Source of the DNA: Cyclobacteriaceae bacterium
Lineage (GTDB): Bacteria; Bacteroidota; Bacteroidia; Cytophagales; Cyclobacteriaceae
Assembly (NCBI GenBank): GCA_016787665.1
Contig: JAEUUC010000006.1
Location: 124,001 to 188,000 of the forward strand
Length of the DNA: 64,000 nucleotides
Reading direction: 5' to 3'
Shown: positions 6,776 to 12,023 of the stretch, piece after piece
Numbering within the stretch: the first letter of the stretch is position 1
Layout: each line of letters begins with the position of its first letter
Notes under the pieces: model-generated
Told to the model about the DNA's origin: nothing
The model's database searches: none
Seen by the model: the letters and a program-made list of their open reading frames with translations, nothing else
Position numbers and translations under genes: made by a program

Positions 6776-7017
6776 TCTTTTCGCACGTAGCCGTACGGAC
6801 AGTGACGACAACCGTTTTCACAGCAGTAGCCCCGCTTGAGAAGATACTGCTCCGTGAACACGACAAAGCCGTTTTCGAAGTAATAGTCCTCTTCGGTTAC
6901 CTTCTTGTTTTTTGACTTGGGGGGTAGCAAAATGCTGCAGTTTAGAAACAAGTATAAATGCGAATTGGCCCTAATTGTTTCAAAATAATTTGGCAGGCCG
7001 CTAAACAAAACGGCCAA
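6736..7017 (-). CDS. DUF5522 Cys-rich small protein (start uncertain)
   Basis: The conserved part is residues ~40-83: EEDYYFENGFVVFTEQYL followed by KRGYCCENGCRHCPYGY, with the CC-x3-C-x2-C cluster that defines DUF5522 and probably binds a metal. The longest frame gives 93 residues, but DUF5522 proteins are usually about 55-70 residues, and the first ~30 residues here (including a run of hydrophobic residues) may not be translated; no ATG lies closer. Its 5' part overlaps sequence upstream of the BtuF-like gene, and the 3' end overlaps meaB. Function unknown. Confidence 0.7.
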   Translation of the reverse strand: MAVLFSGLPNYFETIRANSHLYLFLNCSILLPPKSKNKKVTEEDYYFENGFVVFTEQYLLKRGYCCENGCRHCPYGYVRKDQPVESRPRDSNS

Positions 7018-7044
7018 GCGGGCTCAAATCCGTTTCTTTGCGGG

Positions 7045-8172
7045 ATGTTACGTATTCATCCGCTATTCCTACTTACGGCTGTCACGCTCTTGTTTCAATG
7101 CCGGCAAGCCGAGCGCCCGGCTTCTTTGAGTGATACCCGTCCGAAGTATGCCGAAGGTTTTTCATGGAAACGCGATGGGGGTGCCCTCTGGGTAGACGTT
7201 ACCTATCCTTTTCCGGGTGCCCGGCAAGGGTATCGGTATTTGCTCGTGAAACGTGGCGACCCGGTGCCTGCGCACGATACCGAAACACAGGTGATCTTTA
7301 CTCCGGTGCAACGTATCGTGTGCACCTCCACGACACACCTGCCGTTGCTTGATTACCTGGGTGCAACACAGACGCTCGTGGGGTTTCCGACTACTGACTA
7401 TATCTCATCTGAAAAAATGCGCGCGCGGGTGGATGCCGGCCAAGTAGTTGATGTGGGTGTAGACAAAGGAATGGATCTTGAAAAACTCATCGCATTGAAG
7501 CCGGATGTCGTTATGGGTTATAGCATGAGCAGCGACCTGGGTCAGCTAAAAAAAATCAAGGAGCTGGGTATCCCGGTTGTGACAAATGCCGAGTATCTCG
7601 AAAAACATCCCCTGGGCAGGGCCGAATGGATTCGGTTTATGGCTCTTTTGATGGGGAAGGAAGAGGTGGCGGATTCTGTCTTTCAGGCGATTGAACAGGC
7701 CTATCTGGAGACCGCGCAACAGGCCGCACAGCAAGTCAAGCGACCCACGGTGATGAGCGGTGTGCTGTATGGCGATGGGTGGTTTTTGCCAGGCGGAAAA
7801 AATTATGCTGCCCGGTTGTTGGCCGATGCGGGTTGCCAATACCTGTGGGCGGCCGACTCGACACAAGGCTTTTTGGAATTGAGTTTTGAATCCGTTTATG
7901 CGCAGGCGCGGGAAGCTGATCTCTGGATTGGCGTGGCCAACTTCAAAACCCTGGCCGAGTTAAAAGCCACCGAACCGCGCTATGAGTTGTTTAAGCCCTT
8001 TCGGCAACAGGGTGTTTACACGTACGACAAACGGCATGGCGCCCGCGGGGGGAGTGAATTTCTGGAGCTTGGCTACCTGCGCCCCGATCTGATTTTGAAA
8101 GACCTGGTGAAAATTGCGCACCCCGACTTGCTGCCGGGGTACGAGCTGTTCTTTCACGAGCGACTGAAATAA
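7045..8172 (+). CDS. BtuF/FhuD-type ABC transporter substrate-binding lipoprotein
   Basis: A 375-residue lipoprotein counted from the ATG at 7045. The frame extends upstream to 6958, but only from MLRIHPLFLLTAVTLLFQC does it give a normal lipoprotein signal peptide, with Cys19 as the lipidated residue. The body is a class III periplasmic binding protein: RIVCTSTTHLPLLDYLG, VGVDKGMDLEKLIALKPDVVMGY and a C-terminal LGYLRPDLILKDLVKIAHPDLLPGYELFFHERL. Such proteins carry iron-siderophores or cobalamin to an ABC importer. Proximity to meaB suggests cobalamin, but no permease or ATPase gene is adjacent, so the substrate is inference. Confidence 0.85.
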   Translation: MLRIHPLFLLTAVTLLFQCRQAERPASLSDTRPKYAEGFSWKRDGGALWVDVTYPFPGARQGYRYLLVKRGDPVPAHDTETQVIFTPVQRIVCTSTTHLPLLDYLGATQTLVGFPTTDYISSEKMRARVDAGQVVDVGVDKGMDLEKLIALKPDVVMGYSMSSDLGQLKKIKELGIPVVTNAEYLEKHPLGRAEWIRFMALLMGKEEVADSVFQAIEQAYLETAQQAAQQVKRPTVMSGVLYGDGWFLPGGKNYAARLLADAGCQYLWAADSTQGFLELSFESVYAQAREADLWIGVANFKTLAELKATEPRYELFKPFRQQGVYTYDKRHGARGGSEFLELGYLRPDLILKDLVKIAHPDLLPGYELFFHERLK

Positions 8173-8892
8173 TCACGGCTTGCGCAGATACACGTTTCCA
8201 TATTTGGATTCAAACGCATAACGGGGACCACTGCCCGGTTTTGCAGTTACGTAGGTGTGAAAGTTTCCGTCTTCTACGCCTTTGAGTGCCACATTCAGAT
8301 TTGAGTAAATCTGGCCATAGTTCGTTTCGGCAATTAACTCCCCCGTTTTGCTCTCATCCACCGTCACGTCTACGCCCCCATACGTGGCCTCAACTACCAG
8401 GGGGCCAAAAAAATTCACGACTTCGACCATACCATACACCGATTCAAGCTTTGTCTGGGTATTTCGAGGCACCTTCACCTCCAGTTTAATTTCAAGGTCA
8501 AGGCCGTAGGATTTCATATTCCAATCCACACCATGTTTGTCGCGGTACGCGTGATAATCCTCTTTGCTTTTGAACGTGATCTTATCGTCACCCCGGATCA
8601 CAGTTATGCGGTGAGGCAGGCTTTTGAGGTTGCGGATTTCATTCCGTACATAAACGGAGTTATTGTCGGTTGAACTCTCCAGCACAAACGCATCGTCATT
8701 TTCACCCGCATTAATGCTTACCTGTCCGGTAATCTGAACTTCATTCTTGTCCCAGGTGCTCACGCGCACCTGTTCGGGGTAATCGAAACGAAGGTCAATT
8801 TTCTGACCGGTTGCCACGGGGTAGCTTTTCTGAATAAAGGTTTGGCCCTGGGCCAAACCTGTTGAGAGAATAAGGGCAAGGATCGCACGCAT
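8173..8892 (-). CDS. exported DUF4097-type beta-helix-like protein (second of pair)
   Basis: A 239-residue protein with a signal peptide at residues 1-16 (MRAILALILSTGLAQG). The C-terminal part is built of short repeating beta strands of the form YG-x-V-x-V (VYGMVEVVNFFGPLVVEATYGGVDVTVDESKTGELIAETNYGQIYSNL...ESKYGNVYLRK), typical of DUF4097/GIN-like adhesin domains. It starts 3 bases after the stop of its paralogue-like neighbour and is the last gene of the ECF sigma factor operon. It is probably a periplasmic or cell-surface protein; no specific ligand can be named. Confidence 0.75.
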   Translation of the reverse strand: MRAILALILSTGLAQGQTFIQKSYPVATGQKIDLRFDYPEQVRVSTWDKNEVQITGQVSINAGENDDAFVLESSTDNNSVYVRNEIRNLKSLPHRITVIRGDDKITFKSKEDYHAYRDKHGVDWNMKSYGLDLEIKLEVKVPRNTQTKLESVYGMVEVVNFFGPLVVEATYGGVDVTVDESKTGELIAETNYGQIYSNLNVALKGVEDGNFHTYVTAKPGSGPRYAFESKYGNVYLRKP

Positions 8893-8895
8893 AAT

Positions 8896-9666
8896 CTACT
8901 TTTTGCGCAAGTAAATCTTACCGTAATCTGCCCGCATGGAAACGCTCATGCCGCCTCCGTTAATTTTTCCAGAAATTTTGTCGCTGTAGTTCACAAACTC
9001 GCCATCCCGTTCAACCTCGATTTTGAATTCGGGTGCCACAAATATTTCACCGTATGAGGTACTCAGCTTGAGGTTCGCCTTCAGGTTGGCCGGCAGTGTT
9101 ACATCTACATAACTATACACGGCCACGAGCGAGAGCGGGCCTTTCACATTGTTGCTGAAAGTTGCCTCAATGTGCCCATAAACACTTTTGGCGGTCAGCG
9201 GGCCGGTAATGTTCTCCAACTCAATGCTATTATACGTGGTGGAAATTTCCAGCTCGTTTTCCAGGTTTCGGGCCGCAATGGTTCCCCCATATTGAGACTC
9301 GTGTTCACAGGAAACGATGACTCCGCGGGGCACTAGAATCTTAACATCCGGAGAGTTCATTTTCTTCAATTGAAAAACCTCCACCACTCCGTCTTTCTCG
9401 GTTACGTTGATGCCCAGGCCGGTATTGTCCTCAAGGCCGAGGCCGTTGATGGCCCGCAACCCCTGCGAGCGTGGATCGGATTCACTCTTGCCGCTGCGCG
9501 AGGTGAAGATAATCTCGTTTCCGTTATGCCCTTCAAGGGTAACACGGCCGAGGTGAATTTCCAGGCGGCCGCTGTTGCGCGCCACTTTAAACTCCTGTCC
9601 CCACGCGGCTGTGGTCATCAATACCAACCCGGCCCAAACTGCCAATCTTGTTTTCATTCTTGTCAA
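8896..9666 (-). CDS. exported DUF4097-type beta-helix-like protein (first of pair)
   Basis: A 256-residue protein with a signal peptide (MKTRLAVWAGLVLMTTAAWGQ). The start is either the ATG at 9666 or the one three codons later. It has the same short YG/beta repeats as its neighbour (SQYGGTIAARNLENELEIS, VYGHIEATFS, VYSYVDVTLP, SYGEIFVA, DYGKIYLRK) and shares the C-terminal KYGNVYLRK/DYGKIYLRK signature. It lies 27 bases after the anti-sigma gene, so the operon order is sigma, anti-sigma, two DUF4097 proteins. The pair probably arose by duplication. Confidence 0.75.
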   Translation of the reverse strand: MTRMKTRLAVWAGLVLMTTAAWGQEFKVARNSGRLEIHLGRVTLEGHNGNEIIFTSRSGKSESDPRSQGLRAINGLGLEDNTGLGINVTEKDGVVEVFQLKKMNSPDVKILVPRGVIVSCEHESQYGGTIAARNLENELEISTTYNSIELENITGPLTAKSVYGHIEATFSNNVKGPLSLVAVYSYVDVTLPANLKANLKLSTSYGEIFVAPEFKIEVERDGEFVNYSDKISGKINGGGMSVSMRADYGKIYLRKK

Positions 9667-9693
9667 TTTTTTGTGTTTGAATTAGTTACTCGC

Positions 9694-10452
9694 TCATGAA
9701 AGTTTTAACAGTCCGCGGTGCGCTTCATCTTTCACCGCCTTCATCACCGACTCATCCTCAGCCATTTTTTGCAGTGAGGGCATTACACTTTTCTCCCTCA
9801 TTTGCACCAGCAGGCGAATCAGTTCAATTTTAACCACGGGATCCGTCTGGCTATCGAGCGATTGGATCAACCGTGAACGAACAGCCGGCTCGCGATAAAA
9901 ACGGGAAAGTGCCTCAAGCGCAGCCAGCCGCACGTTGGTATTGTCATCCGTGCTCATGACGTTTACGAGCACCCGAACAATCTCATCATCGGGCTTCTCC
10001 AGTTCGTAGGCGACCGTGGCGCCCTTCAACCGCGTGCTGGCCGATTGCGCATTAGCCAACTGGGCCAGCATCAACTGACGAGTTTCTTCCATTTGTTTAC
10101 GCATGGCGGCCAACTCCCTGCGTTGCGCATCCCACTGCCAGATCACCACAGACAATGCTACCAGGGCCAGTGCGGCTGCCAGCCGAAGTGTCCAGGGCTG
10201 CATCCAAACTTGCTTGCCCCTCGGTTGCTGCATTTCCTCTTGCAGCGCCTGGTCAAAGGCTTGCCGCAAAGAAGCAGGTGGTGTTTGTTCGGCTACCCGA
10301 TCCATTGCGCCCATTACCTCCTTCAGTTGTTTGTAGTGCTCGCGCACCGAAGCATCTGTTTCAATTTGTTTGAGCAACTGCGCAGCTTCTTCGGCTGGCA
10401 GTTTACCATCAACCAAATCGATTAGTTTACTTTCCAATTCTTCGCGTTTCAT
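9694..10452 (-). CDS. membrane-anchored anti-sigma factor-like protein with C-terminal HEAT repeats
   Basis: A 252-residue protein. The N-terminal ~50 residues (MKREELESKLIDLVDGKLPAEEAAQLLKQIETD) resemble the helical anti-sigma domain but lack the zinc-binding His/Cys set. One transmembrane helix is at ~90-107 (LAAALALVALSVVIW). The extracytoplasmic C-terminus holds helical HEAT-like repeats (EIVRVLVNVMSTDDNTNVRLAALEAL, DPVVKIELIRLLVQM, ESVMKAVKDEAHRGLLKL). The start codon overlaps the sigma factor stop (TGATG), so the two are translationally coupled. The HEAT sensor domain is the unusual part. Confidence 0.8.
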   Translation of the reverse strand: MKREELESKLIDLVDGKLPAEEAAQLLKQIETDASVREHYKQLKEVMGAMDRVAEQTPPASLRQAFDQALQEEMQQPRGKQVWMQPWTLRLAAALALVALSVVIWQWDAQRRELAAMRKQMEETRQLMLAQLANAQSASTRLKGATVAYELEKPDDEIVRVLVNVMSTDDNTNVRLAALEALSRFYREPAVRSRLIQSLDSQTDPVVKIELIRLLVQMREKSVMPSLQKMAEDESVMKAVKDEAHRGLLKLS

Positions 10453-10988
10453 CAGGCTTGGGTTTCCAGTTGAAAATACAGGTTGCGCAGATGTCCAATG
10501 GCCCGGTGTACTTTCACCTTTACATTGGCCACGGTTAAGCCGAGTTGGGCGGCCACCTCGTCATACTTCAGGTGCTGGAAGCGGGTGAGCACGAGTAACT
10601 CACGTGCATCATCATCCAGTCGGGCCAGTGCGCTGATCAGCTTTCGCTCCAGCTCTTCCTGCTCCAGGGCCTGTTGTAGCTCGTCTTTCATCTCAGTGGC
10701 GGATGCCAGCGGCACCCAACGTTGCTTTTTTGCCTGCTGGTAATAGTCCGAAAACGCATGGCGGGCCAGTTGGTAGATCCAAGCCTTGAAGGGCAACTCT
10801 GGCTTGTAGGTGTTTCGGTAGCGGAGCAGCCGAACAAATACATTTTGTGCCAGATCTTCGGCCATCTCCCGGTGGGCCGTCATGCGCAACAAAAAGTTGT
10901 AGATCCGAACGTGGTAACGCTCAAATAACAGGGAGGCCTTTGACAGATCACCGTTTTTCACGGCTTCCATGAGCTGTTCGTCTGTCAT
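10452..10988 (-). CDS. ECF-type RNA polymerase sigma factor (sigma-70 family)
   Basis: A 178-residue protein, the normal ECF size. Region 2 is seen at RIYNFLLRMTAHREMAEDLAQNVFVRLLRYR...FKAWIYQLARHAFSDYYQQ, and region 4 at ALARLDDDARELLVLTRFQHLKYDEVAAQLGLTVANVKVKVHRAIGHLRN. It directs RNA polymerase to its regulon and is presumably held inactive by the adjacent membrane anti-sigma factor. It is the first gene of a four-gene operon that ends in two exported DUF4097 proteins, the best candidates for direct targets or sensory partners. Autoregulation is likely but no confident ECF promoter could be assigned. Confidence 0.92.
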   Translation of the reverse strand: MTDEQLMEAVKNGDLSKASLLFERYHVRIYNFLLRMTAHREMAEDLAQNVFVRLLRYRNTYKPELPFKAWIYQLARHAFSDYYQQAKKQRWVPLASATEMKDELQQALEQEELERKLISALARLDDDARELLVLTRFQHLKYDEVAAQLGLTVANVKVKVHRAIGHLRNLYFQLETQA

Positions 10989-11141
10989 CAGTCGCCTGCT
11001 AGTTTTGATGGTTTTCGTAGGTGATTACCGGAGCCTCCAGGAAAGGTTACAAGTTGCTGAAAAATCACTCAAAAAAGAGCGCCTGAGCGCAGTACCGGTT
11101 TGGGGCACATGGCGAAAAGAATTAGTTTTGCCCCTCTTTTT

Positions 11142-11203
11142 CGGGGTGTAGCACAGCCCGGCTAGTGCGCCCCGACAGGTCGGGGAGGTCGGAGGTTCGA
11201 ACT
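11142..11203 (+). pseudogene. damaged tRNA-Pro copy with palindrome in place of the anticodon arm
   Basis: Bases 11141-11170 are identical to the first 30 bases around the 5' end of the intact tRNA-Pro at 11474. The D arm is intact. The 17-base anticodon arm is replaced by the 16-base palindrome CCCCGACAGGTCGGGG. The variable loop and the first half of the T arm (AGGTCGGAGGTTCGAA) match again, after which the match ends, so the 3' acceptor strand is missing. It cannot make a functional tRNA. It sits directly before and partly overlaps the start region of the GIY-YIG ORF. Confidence 0.8.
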
Positions 11204-11204
11204 T

Positions 11205-11483
11205 TTGCCTAGGAAATTGGAACAAGTATTCTACACCTACATCATTGAATCGACCAAGACAGGAACCTGGTATTATGGACATTCTGAGAATTTGAAACGA
11301 AGAATAATTGAACACAACTCGGGAAACACAAAATCGACAAGGAGCAAAGGGCCTTGGAAACTAATTTTCAAAAGACCATTTTTGAGGAAACTCGAGGCGG
11401 CTCGGTTTGAATTGAAGTTGAAGAAATTAAAAAACAAGACCTTCATTCAAAAATCGTTTTCTGAGTATTTCATCGGGGTGTAG
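11205..11483 (+). CDS. GIY-YIG nuclease-like small protein embedded between tRNA-Pro sequences
   Basis: A 92-residue single-domain GIY-YIG protein: YTYII strand, YYG in place of YIG (residues 23-25), catalytic Arg in LKRRI, EHN, and the catalytic Glu in LEAARFELKLKKLK (Glu64/Glu69). No ATG is available near the start; TTG at 11205 or 11217 is likely. The stop codon TAG and the last codons lie inside the intact tRNA-Pro gene, and the start region lies at the edge of a partial tRNA-Pro copy. The ORF is visibly more AT-rich than its neighbours, suggesting transfer. Small GIY-YIG proteins of this kind are abundant in Bacteroidota. Activity is unproven; a role in targeting the tRNA gene is inference. 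Confidence 0.82.
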   Translation: MPRKLEQVFYTYIIESTKTGTWYYGHSENLKRRIIEHNSGNTKSTRSKGPWKLIFKRPFLRKLEAARFELKLKKLKNKTFIQKSFSEYFIGV

Positions 11484-11548
11484 CACAGCCCGGCTAGTGC
11501 GCTACGTTCGGGACGTAGAGGTCGGAGGTTCGAATCCTCTCACCCCGA
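11474..11548 (+). tRNA. tRNA-Pro (anticodon CGG)
   Basis: A 75-base cloverleaf: acceptor CGGGGTG/CACCCCG, D arm GCAC/GTGC, anticodon arm CTACG-TTCGGGA-CGTAG with anticodon CGG, T arm GGAGG-TTCGAAT-CCTCT. CCA is not encoded. A strong terminator follows. The first bases double as the end of the GIY-YIG reading frame. Confidence 0.95.
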
Positions 11549-11560
11549 CAAAATCAGATC

Positions 11561-11595
11561 AAAGCCTTCATTTACACAATGAAGGCTTTATTTTT
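11561..11595 (+). terminator. intrinsic terminator after tRNA-Pro
   Basis: A perfect 12-base stem AAAGCCTTCATT / AATGAAGGCTTT with loop TACAC, followed by ATTTTT. Confidence 0.9.
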
Positions 11596-11615
11596 ATCGC
11601 ACTAAACATCATCTC

Positions 11616-12023
11616 ATGAGTAACCCCAGAAGAAGATTTATGACCCGGATGGGCGCTACACTGGTGGCCGCAGCTGCTGTGGCTGACGTAAACGGCCAGA
11701 CAACGAAAAGAGGCAAGCTCATCCATCACGTCTTCTTTTGGCTCGCAAACCCGAACGCACAAGAAGACCGCGCGCAATTGCTGGAGGGCCTTCGTTCACT
11801 CGGCAAAATCAAAACGCTGCGGGATTTTCGCATCGGCATACCGGCCGCCACGGAAGCGCGTGACGTGATCGATTCATCGTATTCATTCTCATTGTTTACG
11901 GTGTTCGATGACATCGCAGGGCACGATGCGTACCAGGTGGATCCGGTTCACACCCATTTTGTTGATACATACAAACACCTTTGGAAAAAGGTCACGGTAT
12001 ATGATGTAAATGACATCGGATAA
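11616..12023 (+). CDS. Dabb family (stress-responsive A/B barrel) protein with Tat-like signal
   Basis: A 135-residue protein. The N-terminus SNPRRRFMTRMGATLVAAAAVADV has a twin-arginine-type signal (RRRFM followed by a weakly hydrophobic stretch). Residues ~38-132 form a dimeric alpha/beta barrel (Dabb): KLIHHVFFWLANP, LLEGLRSLGKIKTLRDFRIGIP, YSFSLFTVFDDIAGHDAYQVDPVHTHFVD. Exported Dabb proteins occur widely in Bacteroidota with unknown substrates. The glycosyltransferase gene begins 7 bases downstream, so the two may be co-transcribed, though a functional link is not evident. Confidence 0.85.
   Translation: MSNPRRRFMTRMGATLVAAAAVADVNGQTTKRGKLIHHVFFWLANPNAQEDRAQLLEGLRSLGKIKTLRDFRIGIPAATEARDVIDSSYSFSLFTVFDDIAGHDAYQVDPVHTHFVDTYKHLWKKVTVYDVNDIG

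Follow-up and report, generated by a model that had tools for sequence, protein, structure and literature searches.

A GIY-YIG nuclease gene nested between a damaged and an intact tRNA-Pro gene likely belongs to a widespread selfish element of tRNA genes

Bacterial genomes likely harbor a selfish element, widespread and so far undescribed, that inserts copies of itself at tRNA genes and leaves one working copy of the invaded tRNA behind. We describe it from a 64,000-nucleotide stretch of a Cyclobacteriaceae bacterium (the window; genome G000), in which a cassette of about 0.4 kb at tRNA-Pro(CGG) consists of a short GIY-YIG nuclease gene between a damaged and an intact copy of the tRNA (Table 1). 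As judged from sequence, this layout is that of an insertion within a tRNA gene that preserves one whole tRNA, and related layouts recur in the same genome, in its relatives and in other phyla.

An earlier note on this DNA had described the locus in outline, and most of that description holds. The start of the tRNA is exactly repeated over 30 bases and no longer (11141-11170 and 11473-11502), and the 92-codon GIY-YIG frame, whose TAG stop lies inside the intact tRNA-Pro, is as AT-rich as the note had claimed: its GC content is 36.8%, against 50.9% for the window, and 0.3% of 269-bp stretches are equally AT-rich. The damaged copy does lack its 3' acceptor strand, but the anticodon arm that the note called missing is replaced by a palindrome rather than lost, and the copy is longer than had been stated, extending into the T-loop. 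The same palindrome recurs in the Pro copy of another genome of the genus (G017, locus L010). The sequence upstream of the damaged copy is, by alignment, homologous to the native tRNA-Pro leader of a relative, G049, and the intact tRNA is the sole CGG tRNA among this genome's tRNA matches. Translation more likely starts at the TTG at 11217, giving a protein of 88 amino acids, since homologues begin at that position. Several homologues share C-terminal residues such as FIGV or FIGM with the window's ORF, as would be expected if their frames also run into the start of a tRNA-Pro gene.

Table 1. Features of the tRNA-Pro(CGG) locus, in window coordinates.
Feature	Position	Strand	Basis
Leader before damaged copy	11115..11141	+	blastn of 11115-11201 vs G049: 84% over 89 bp, minus strand
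Damaged partial tRNA-Pro(CGG), positions 1-61, T-loop end GGTTCGAA, without 3' acceptor strand	11142..11201	+	local alignment score 81
Palindrome CCCCGACAGGTCGGGG, 7-bp perfect stem, in place of anticodon arm	11170..11185	.	sequence
GIY-YIG nuclease ORF, single-domain, 92 codons from TTG	11205..11483	+	Pfam PF01541, 8.6e-15
Intact tRNA-Pro(CGG)	11474..11549	+	ARAGORN; Rfam tRNA, 63 bits
Hairpin then T-rich stretch, terminator-like, 3' of intact tRNA	11561..11589	+	by eye from sequence

Integrase-type integration usually leaves a partial tRNA duplication and one intact copy, and the locus does show a direct repeat of part of a tRNA with one intact tRNA present. That it is an ordinary scar of this type at a tRNA att site, with the GIY-YIG gene as a passenger, is nonetheless scarcely credible: between the two copies the tRNA strand encodes the GIY-YIG ORF only and no recombinase, duplication affects the 5' part of the tRNA about as often as the 3' part across loci, and the same ORF family occupies most sites with nothing else recurrent. 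We also rejected a group I intron in the tRNA, as Rfam models at gathering thresholds match nothing but tRNAs in the window and the intact tRNA is uninterrupted. Origin from a phage or plasmid was likewise rejected: a search of phage records returned no protein match, a scan of viral contigs returned 76 pattern stretches with no relative among them, and the plasmid matches listed (5 of 133 records) cover the tRNA gene alone, about 20% of the query.

The earlier note had proposed to look in relatives for an empty site with one tRNA-Pro. Such a site, with one tRNA-Pro(CGG) and neither ORF nor tRNA fragment, occurs in G049 and G008, the former also rearranged. Four of the 30 Dabb loci fetched from the genus contain tRNA-Pro(CGG), two of them filled (G000, G017) and two empty (G049, G008). 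Both outer flanks are 96% identical between G049 and G000; the tRNA is inverted in G049, and a mere 277 bp stand there in place of 3.4 kb of the window (8217-11651), so this pair does not represent a pure insertion. The inverted single tRNA-Pro and the Dabb gene of G049 come almost directly after the gene at 6958-8172, without the intervening 3.4 kb that include the ECF sigma factor operon. G008 and G017 differ in arrangement at the tRNA by the cassette alone, with a flank identity of 72%. Other tRNA genes differ between G000 and G049 as well (36 tRNA matches in G049, 30 loci fetched, 32 distinct tRNAs analysed). At tRNA-Pro(AGG), G000 has 160 bp lacking in G049, which contain no ORF and end in a 17-base copy of the tRNA end, and the upstream flank is 98.7% identical over 1576 bp up to the tRNA end. 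At tRNA-Met and tRNA-Ser(TGA), ORF cassettes are present in G049 and deletion remnants in G000.

Some cassettes form tandem arrays. The units of five such arrays are 97.3-100% identical: those of G202 and G255 are 100% identical over 300 bp, with periods of 317 and 322, and those of the three others 97.3-99%; we take the arrays to be young. Unit number varies among close relatives (Asp, Arg(CCG)). An assembly artefact was rejected, as single-contig genomes (G023, G033, G202 and G255 among others) contain arrays and cassettes. Many matches lie a few hundred bases from contig ends (G024:C5, G024:C98, G005:C11, G001:C11, G217:C42, G137:C97 and similar), and arrays probably break short-read assemblies. 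The near-identity of the units and their varying number, together with the reported precedent of tRNA-Tyr and SegB in phage T6 (PMC13096335), would agree with a model in which breaks made by a resident nuclease in the tRNA region let recombination multiply tRNA-ORF units locally, perhaps to the benefit of the host and with no need of horizontal homing. We consider such purely local amplification quite improbable: the extra tRNA copies are damaged, so that tRNA dosage is not raised, filled and empty sites alternate among relatives, and nucleases of the same isotype are related across phyla.

The arrangement that the earlier note had proposed to search for, a GIY-YIG ORF adjoining a partial copy of the same tRNA, is common in Bacteroidota and beyond. 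Among 120 loci pooled by protein similarity (the source genome, its relatives and 76 of 80 named loci, with duplicates removed), 103 have the GIY-YIG gene within 200 bp of a tRNA gene, on the tRNA's strand in 103 of 103 cases. A cognate partial tRNA copy lies nearby in 90 of these 103. Among 98 control stretches at a distance none has such a copy, and comparisons with non-cognate tRNAs give 67 of 1236. The remaining 17 of the 120, some of them at contig ends, have no tRNA within 200 bp. Left out of the pool are L005 and L037 (second array units), L074, L081, L083 and L084 (contigs of L010-L013), and four loci of the source genome, L007, L008, L009 and L046; including the latter four gives 103 of 124, plus L008 at a tmRNA.

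Relatives and named genomes show this association alike. Protein matches occur in 26 of 39 genomes of the relatives sample, the source genome included, where 30 loci and 12 further regions were examined (11 of the 12 were pooled, L060 was not). For the named genomes, 80 loci were kept of 267 confirmed relatives; 69 of the 80 lie within 200 bp of a tRNA, 69 of 69 on the same strand and 55 with a copy scoring at least 30. By group, the loci near a tRNA number 53 of 61 in Bacteroidota, Ignavibacteria and others, 14 of 17 in Patescibacteria and 2 of 2 in Chloroflexota. A phylum-wide draw found a GIY-YIG match to the profile at 1e-6 or below in 128 of 198 genomes. Its independent loci lie near a tRNA in 23 of 29 cases, on the same strand in 23 of 23 and with a copy in 22 of 23; the other six are at contig ends, 212-765 bp from a tRNA, or in loci with no tRNA. 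Ten further loci include six near a tRNA; for one of the six the tRNA call is unassigned. The isotype labels of L003, L004 and L073 were set by hand because the nearest called tRNA is not the duplicated one, with L073 counted as Val in the isotype-tree test described below and L003 pooled with a spurious tRNA-Ser. ARAGORN calls spurious or odd tRNAs (tRNA-Ser(gct), tRNA-???) on damaged copies or arrays (L003 1404-1484, L015 1915-2002, L246), and automatic tRNA counts near cassettes may be inflated. In the isolate Roseivirga sp. E12 (L073, 2678-3641), two GIY-YIG units precede tRNA-Pro(GGG) and the adjoining tRNA-Val has its own ORF-less damaged copy, so that two invaded tRNAs lie side by side. 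Other environmental isolates with a cassette are Chryseotalea sanaruensis, at tRNA-Pro(AGG), and Mucilaginibacter flavidus, at tRNA-Arg.

Within the source genome, a search with the window's ORF returned nine GIY-YIG matches; two long GIY-YIG proteins (592 and 465 aa) and one weak match from a Pfam-profile search are not counted. Five of the nine lie within 60 bp of a same-strand tRNA, namely Pro(CGG), His, Leu(CAA), Arg(TCT) behind Pro(TGG), and Val(TAC); as a measure of chance expectation, the positions no more than 200 bp from a tRNA make up about 0.5% of the genome. In the cassette beside Arg(TCT), the duplicated tRNA is Pro(TGG), at a distance of 125 bp. The tRNA-Val is followed by a tandem array, whose second unit, 390 bp from the tRNA, is the sixth match. 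The seventh (L008, G000:C4:431223-434444; GIY-YIG at 1501-1737) stands directly behind the tmRNA gene (1035-1430), and past it the tmRNA 3' end occurs a second time; tmRNA thus seems to be targeted like tRNAs. The other two matches, and one more found with the Pfam profile, lie between palindromic repeats (L007, L009 and L046; coding strand, approximately 1200-2050). These repeats look dispersed and are of the CTCAGCGTGACA, CATTCCGGG and CTCGCCATGACG types, and the three nucleases may belong to them.

The earlier note's reading of the locus as a cassette, which captures the insertion-in-tRNA layout with one tRNA kept, has to be extended in two respects: a mirror layout exists, and damaged tRNA copies without an ORF occur elsewhere in the genome. 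Across the 90 loci with a partial copy, 40 have the order damaged 5' part, ORF, intact tRNA, with 33 of these 40 copies starting at tRNA position 1, and 37 have the order intact tRNA, ORF, damaged 3' part, with 31 of the 37 copies ending no more than 2 bases from the tRNA's last base; in the other 13, copy and tRNA lie on one side of the ORF. Both mirror layouts span many isotypes and phyla. The copy thus mostly retains the outer end of the tRNA, as after an intragenic insertion that resupplies the rest. As for copies without an ORF, the source genome has 38 tRNA genes once a spurious ARAGORN call on a damaged Leu copy is set aside, and 16 of them lie no more than 500 bp from a cognate partial copy (score at least 28), five with an ORF and 11 without; some of the ORF-less copies are deletion remnants.

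Most damaged copies are marked by a perfect palindrome in an arm or loop of the tRNA. A stem of at least 7 with a loop of at most 8 is present in 63 of 90 damaged copies; the same holds for 11 of the 90 intact tRNAs and for 82 of 1800 control windows. These palindromes are often clean loop insertions at recurrent sites: in the Arg D-loop, CCTGCCTGCCGGCAGGCAGG is inserted at GGATA/GAGCA in several phyla, and in the Leu(CAA) T-loop the site is GGTTC/GATTC. The T-loops of Leu(CAA), Arg(CCG) and Cys carry related palindromes of the CCTGCCC...GGGCAGG type. In Phe and His the palindrome lies in the T-loop, in Ser in the anticodon loop or D-loop, and in Pro, Gly, Ala and Val it replaces the anticodon arm; its position follows the isotype. 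Within isotypes, palindrome site and nuclease clade agree no better than chance (15 changes, with as few or fewer in 147 of 500 within-isotype shuffles). A common exact T-loop end for all 5' copies was considered and dropped, as only part of them end there. In the source genome the pattern TCCCGA-N2..12-TCGGGA occurs 16 times (the reversed pattern once), in 13 cases in damaged tRNA copies and otherwise in RNase P RNA, in an ORF and in one place elsewhere. The form TCCCGAT...ATCGGGA sits in the RNase P RNA gene (assigned by Rfam) and in an ORF that is GreA-like by eye (L055 779-796, L059 769-786); Rickettsia palindromic elements likewise sit inside RNA and protein genes.

An alternative starts from these palindromes: the moving unit would be a REP-like palindrome that lands in tRNA loops, the second tRNA would be a rescue duplication, and the Slx1-like nuclease would handle hairpins or branched DNA in a RAYT-like role. 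The clean insertions at recurrent tRNA sites, the enrichment of stems in damaged copies, the concentration of the TCCCGA/TCGGGA palindromes there, the three other GIY-YIG genes between palindromic repeats, and the branched-DNA nucleases that are the protein's nearest solved structures all agree with such a scenario. It does not itself account for nuclease lineages that track isotypes, it leaves unexplained why the ORF lies between both copies in both mirror layouts, and 27 of 90 damaged copies have no such stem; we judge it unlikely. A role for the damaged copies as structured RNAs, for example as decoys for tRNA-cutting toxins or phage defences with the nuclease as partner or passenger, would agree with their position adjoining the tRNA on its strand, and with the parts of the tRNA fold that they keep, whose arms are lengthened by palindromes in the loops. 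Such a role is very improbable, given that most copies have lost or displaced the anticodon loop or one of the other loops, that whole acceptor strands are missing, and that copies decay and vanish between close relatives.

Nuclease lineages track the tRNA isotype and not the host phylum. A tree of 103 nucleases, built on few columns and with many open forks, requires 32 changes of tRNA isotype, compared with a mean of 70 (lowest 64) in 300 shuffles; by phylum the same tree requires 23 changes, compared with 25.5 (lowest 23). The family is under purifying selection in measurable pairs, with dN/dS of 0-0.19 in 10 of 11, an outcome in favour of the earlier note, which had named a lack of selection (dN/dS near 1) as grounds against its reading; the window ORF's own pairs are saturated. 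Catalytic residues Y12, Y23, G25, H37 and E69 are invariant in 24 aligned proteins, and R33 is at least 90% conserved. GIY-YIG (PF01541) is the ORF's sole Pfam family, with no HUH-type Y1 transposase, and a search of NCBIfam with the ORF protein returned no family. In profile comparisons UPF0213 and SLX1 score far above I-TevI (0.054), and a structural model and its fold matches place branched-DNA nucleases as the nearest solved structures. By these comparisons the protein is a minimal Slx1/UPF0213-like GIY-YIG protein without an added domain, and not of the I-TevI lineage.

We lean toward an explanation in which isotype-specialised elements, each cassette carrying a predicted tRNA-gene-cutting nuclease, spread by homing into tRNA genes. 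The nuclease would cut the same tRNA gene in a cassette-free chromosome, and recombinational repair would copy in the ORF plus a complete tRNA, with each nuclease lineage presumably cutting one tRNA isotype. The cut would fall either in the palindrome-bearing arm or loop or in the T-loop, in which several of the 5' copies stop, and the palindrome may block re-cutting of the damaged copy or its recombination with the intact one. Break-induced unequal recombination would give rise to tandem arrays, as reported for SegB of phage T6 (PMC13096335). We hold homing with unequal recombination most likely because the cassettes resemble SegB-like chemistry carried out by another GIY-YIG lineage on chromosomes. 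Homing does not account for how a single-domain Slx1-like protein without an added DNA-binding domain would recognize a single tRNA, nor for donor immunity, since the intact tRNA leaves any intragenic site uninterrupted. The excess of ORF-less damaged copies over those with an ORF in the source genome (11 versus 5) also counts against it, as does the chance-level agreement of palindrome site and nuclease clade within isotypes.

If homing is right, these are very small selfish elements aimed at single-copy tRNA genes, which invade an essential gene without an intron or integrase and belong to the repair-type Slx1 branch of GIY-YIG, not to the branch already known for homing. Homing would then also make sense of several oddities met at tRNA genes, namely puzzling partial copies, hairpins, erroneous tRNA calls and breaks between contigs, and would offer natural nucleases of predicted tRNA-gene specificity. 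More tentatively, we propose that the cassettes form a new class of mobile element of chromosomes, which abounds in Bacteroidota and extends to several other phyla. In this class, one Slx1-like lineage per tRNA isotype (or tmRNA) would home into the essential gene and leave a complete tRNA, with palindromes in the left-over copy marking cut sites. If this is true, the tRNA set of a genome records its invasions.

The cassettes share individual traits with several known systems. Like integrative elements at tRNA att sites, they duplicate part of a tRNA and leave one intact copy; they differ in having no recombinase and no cargo, in their size of about 0.3-0.4 kb per unit, and in duplicating either the 5' or the 3' part. 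REP/RAYT and Rickettsia-type palindromic elements are short palindromes inserted in RNA and protein genes. The cassettes share such short inserted palindromes with them, but their linked enzyme is a GIY-YIG nuclease in place of the HUH transposase of REP/RAYT, and in the source genome the palindromes lie mostly in damaged tRNA copies. The closest parallel is SegB of T-even phages, a free-standing GIY-YIG homing endonuclease of the tRNA region (PMC13096335, PMC2988022). SegB of phage T6 is reported to cut neighbouring tRNA genes with a preferred motif, RAWTSGAAC; its breaks lead through recombination to tandem tRNA-segB units, and the 5' end of the tRNA shares microhomology with the 3' end of segB (PMC13096335). 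The reverse complement of this motif, GTTCSAWTY, is the tRNA T-loop consensus. A GIY-YIG nuclease adjoining tRNA genes of many isotypes, and tandem tRNA-nuclease units, are common to SegB and the cassettes; SegB is phage-borne and of the I-TevI-type homing group, whereas the cassette nuclease is chromosomal and nearer to UPF0213/Slx1. The cassettes moreover carry a palindrome-scarred partial copy of one tRNA, which we have not seen described for SegB in the accounts consulted. Among the matches listed in a literature search that covered neither subscription papers nor preprints, none describes chromosomal GIY-YIG genes between tRNA copies. One analysis of the superfamily sets stand-alone Slx1-like proteins apart from the known selfish GIY-YIG lineages and asks whether other members might be parasites (PMC1564403). 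With Slx1/UPF0213 (COG2827), the cassette protein shares the minimal GIY-YIG sequence and fold and the absence of an added domain. To our knowledge neither UPF0213 nor Slx1 is known as mobile or tRNA-linked, and the nesting of such a protein in tRNA genes is what the cassettes add to this family.
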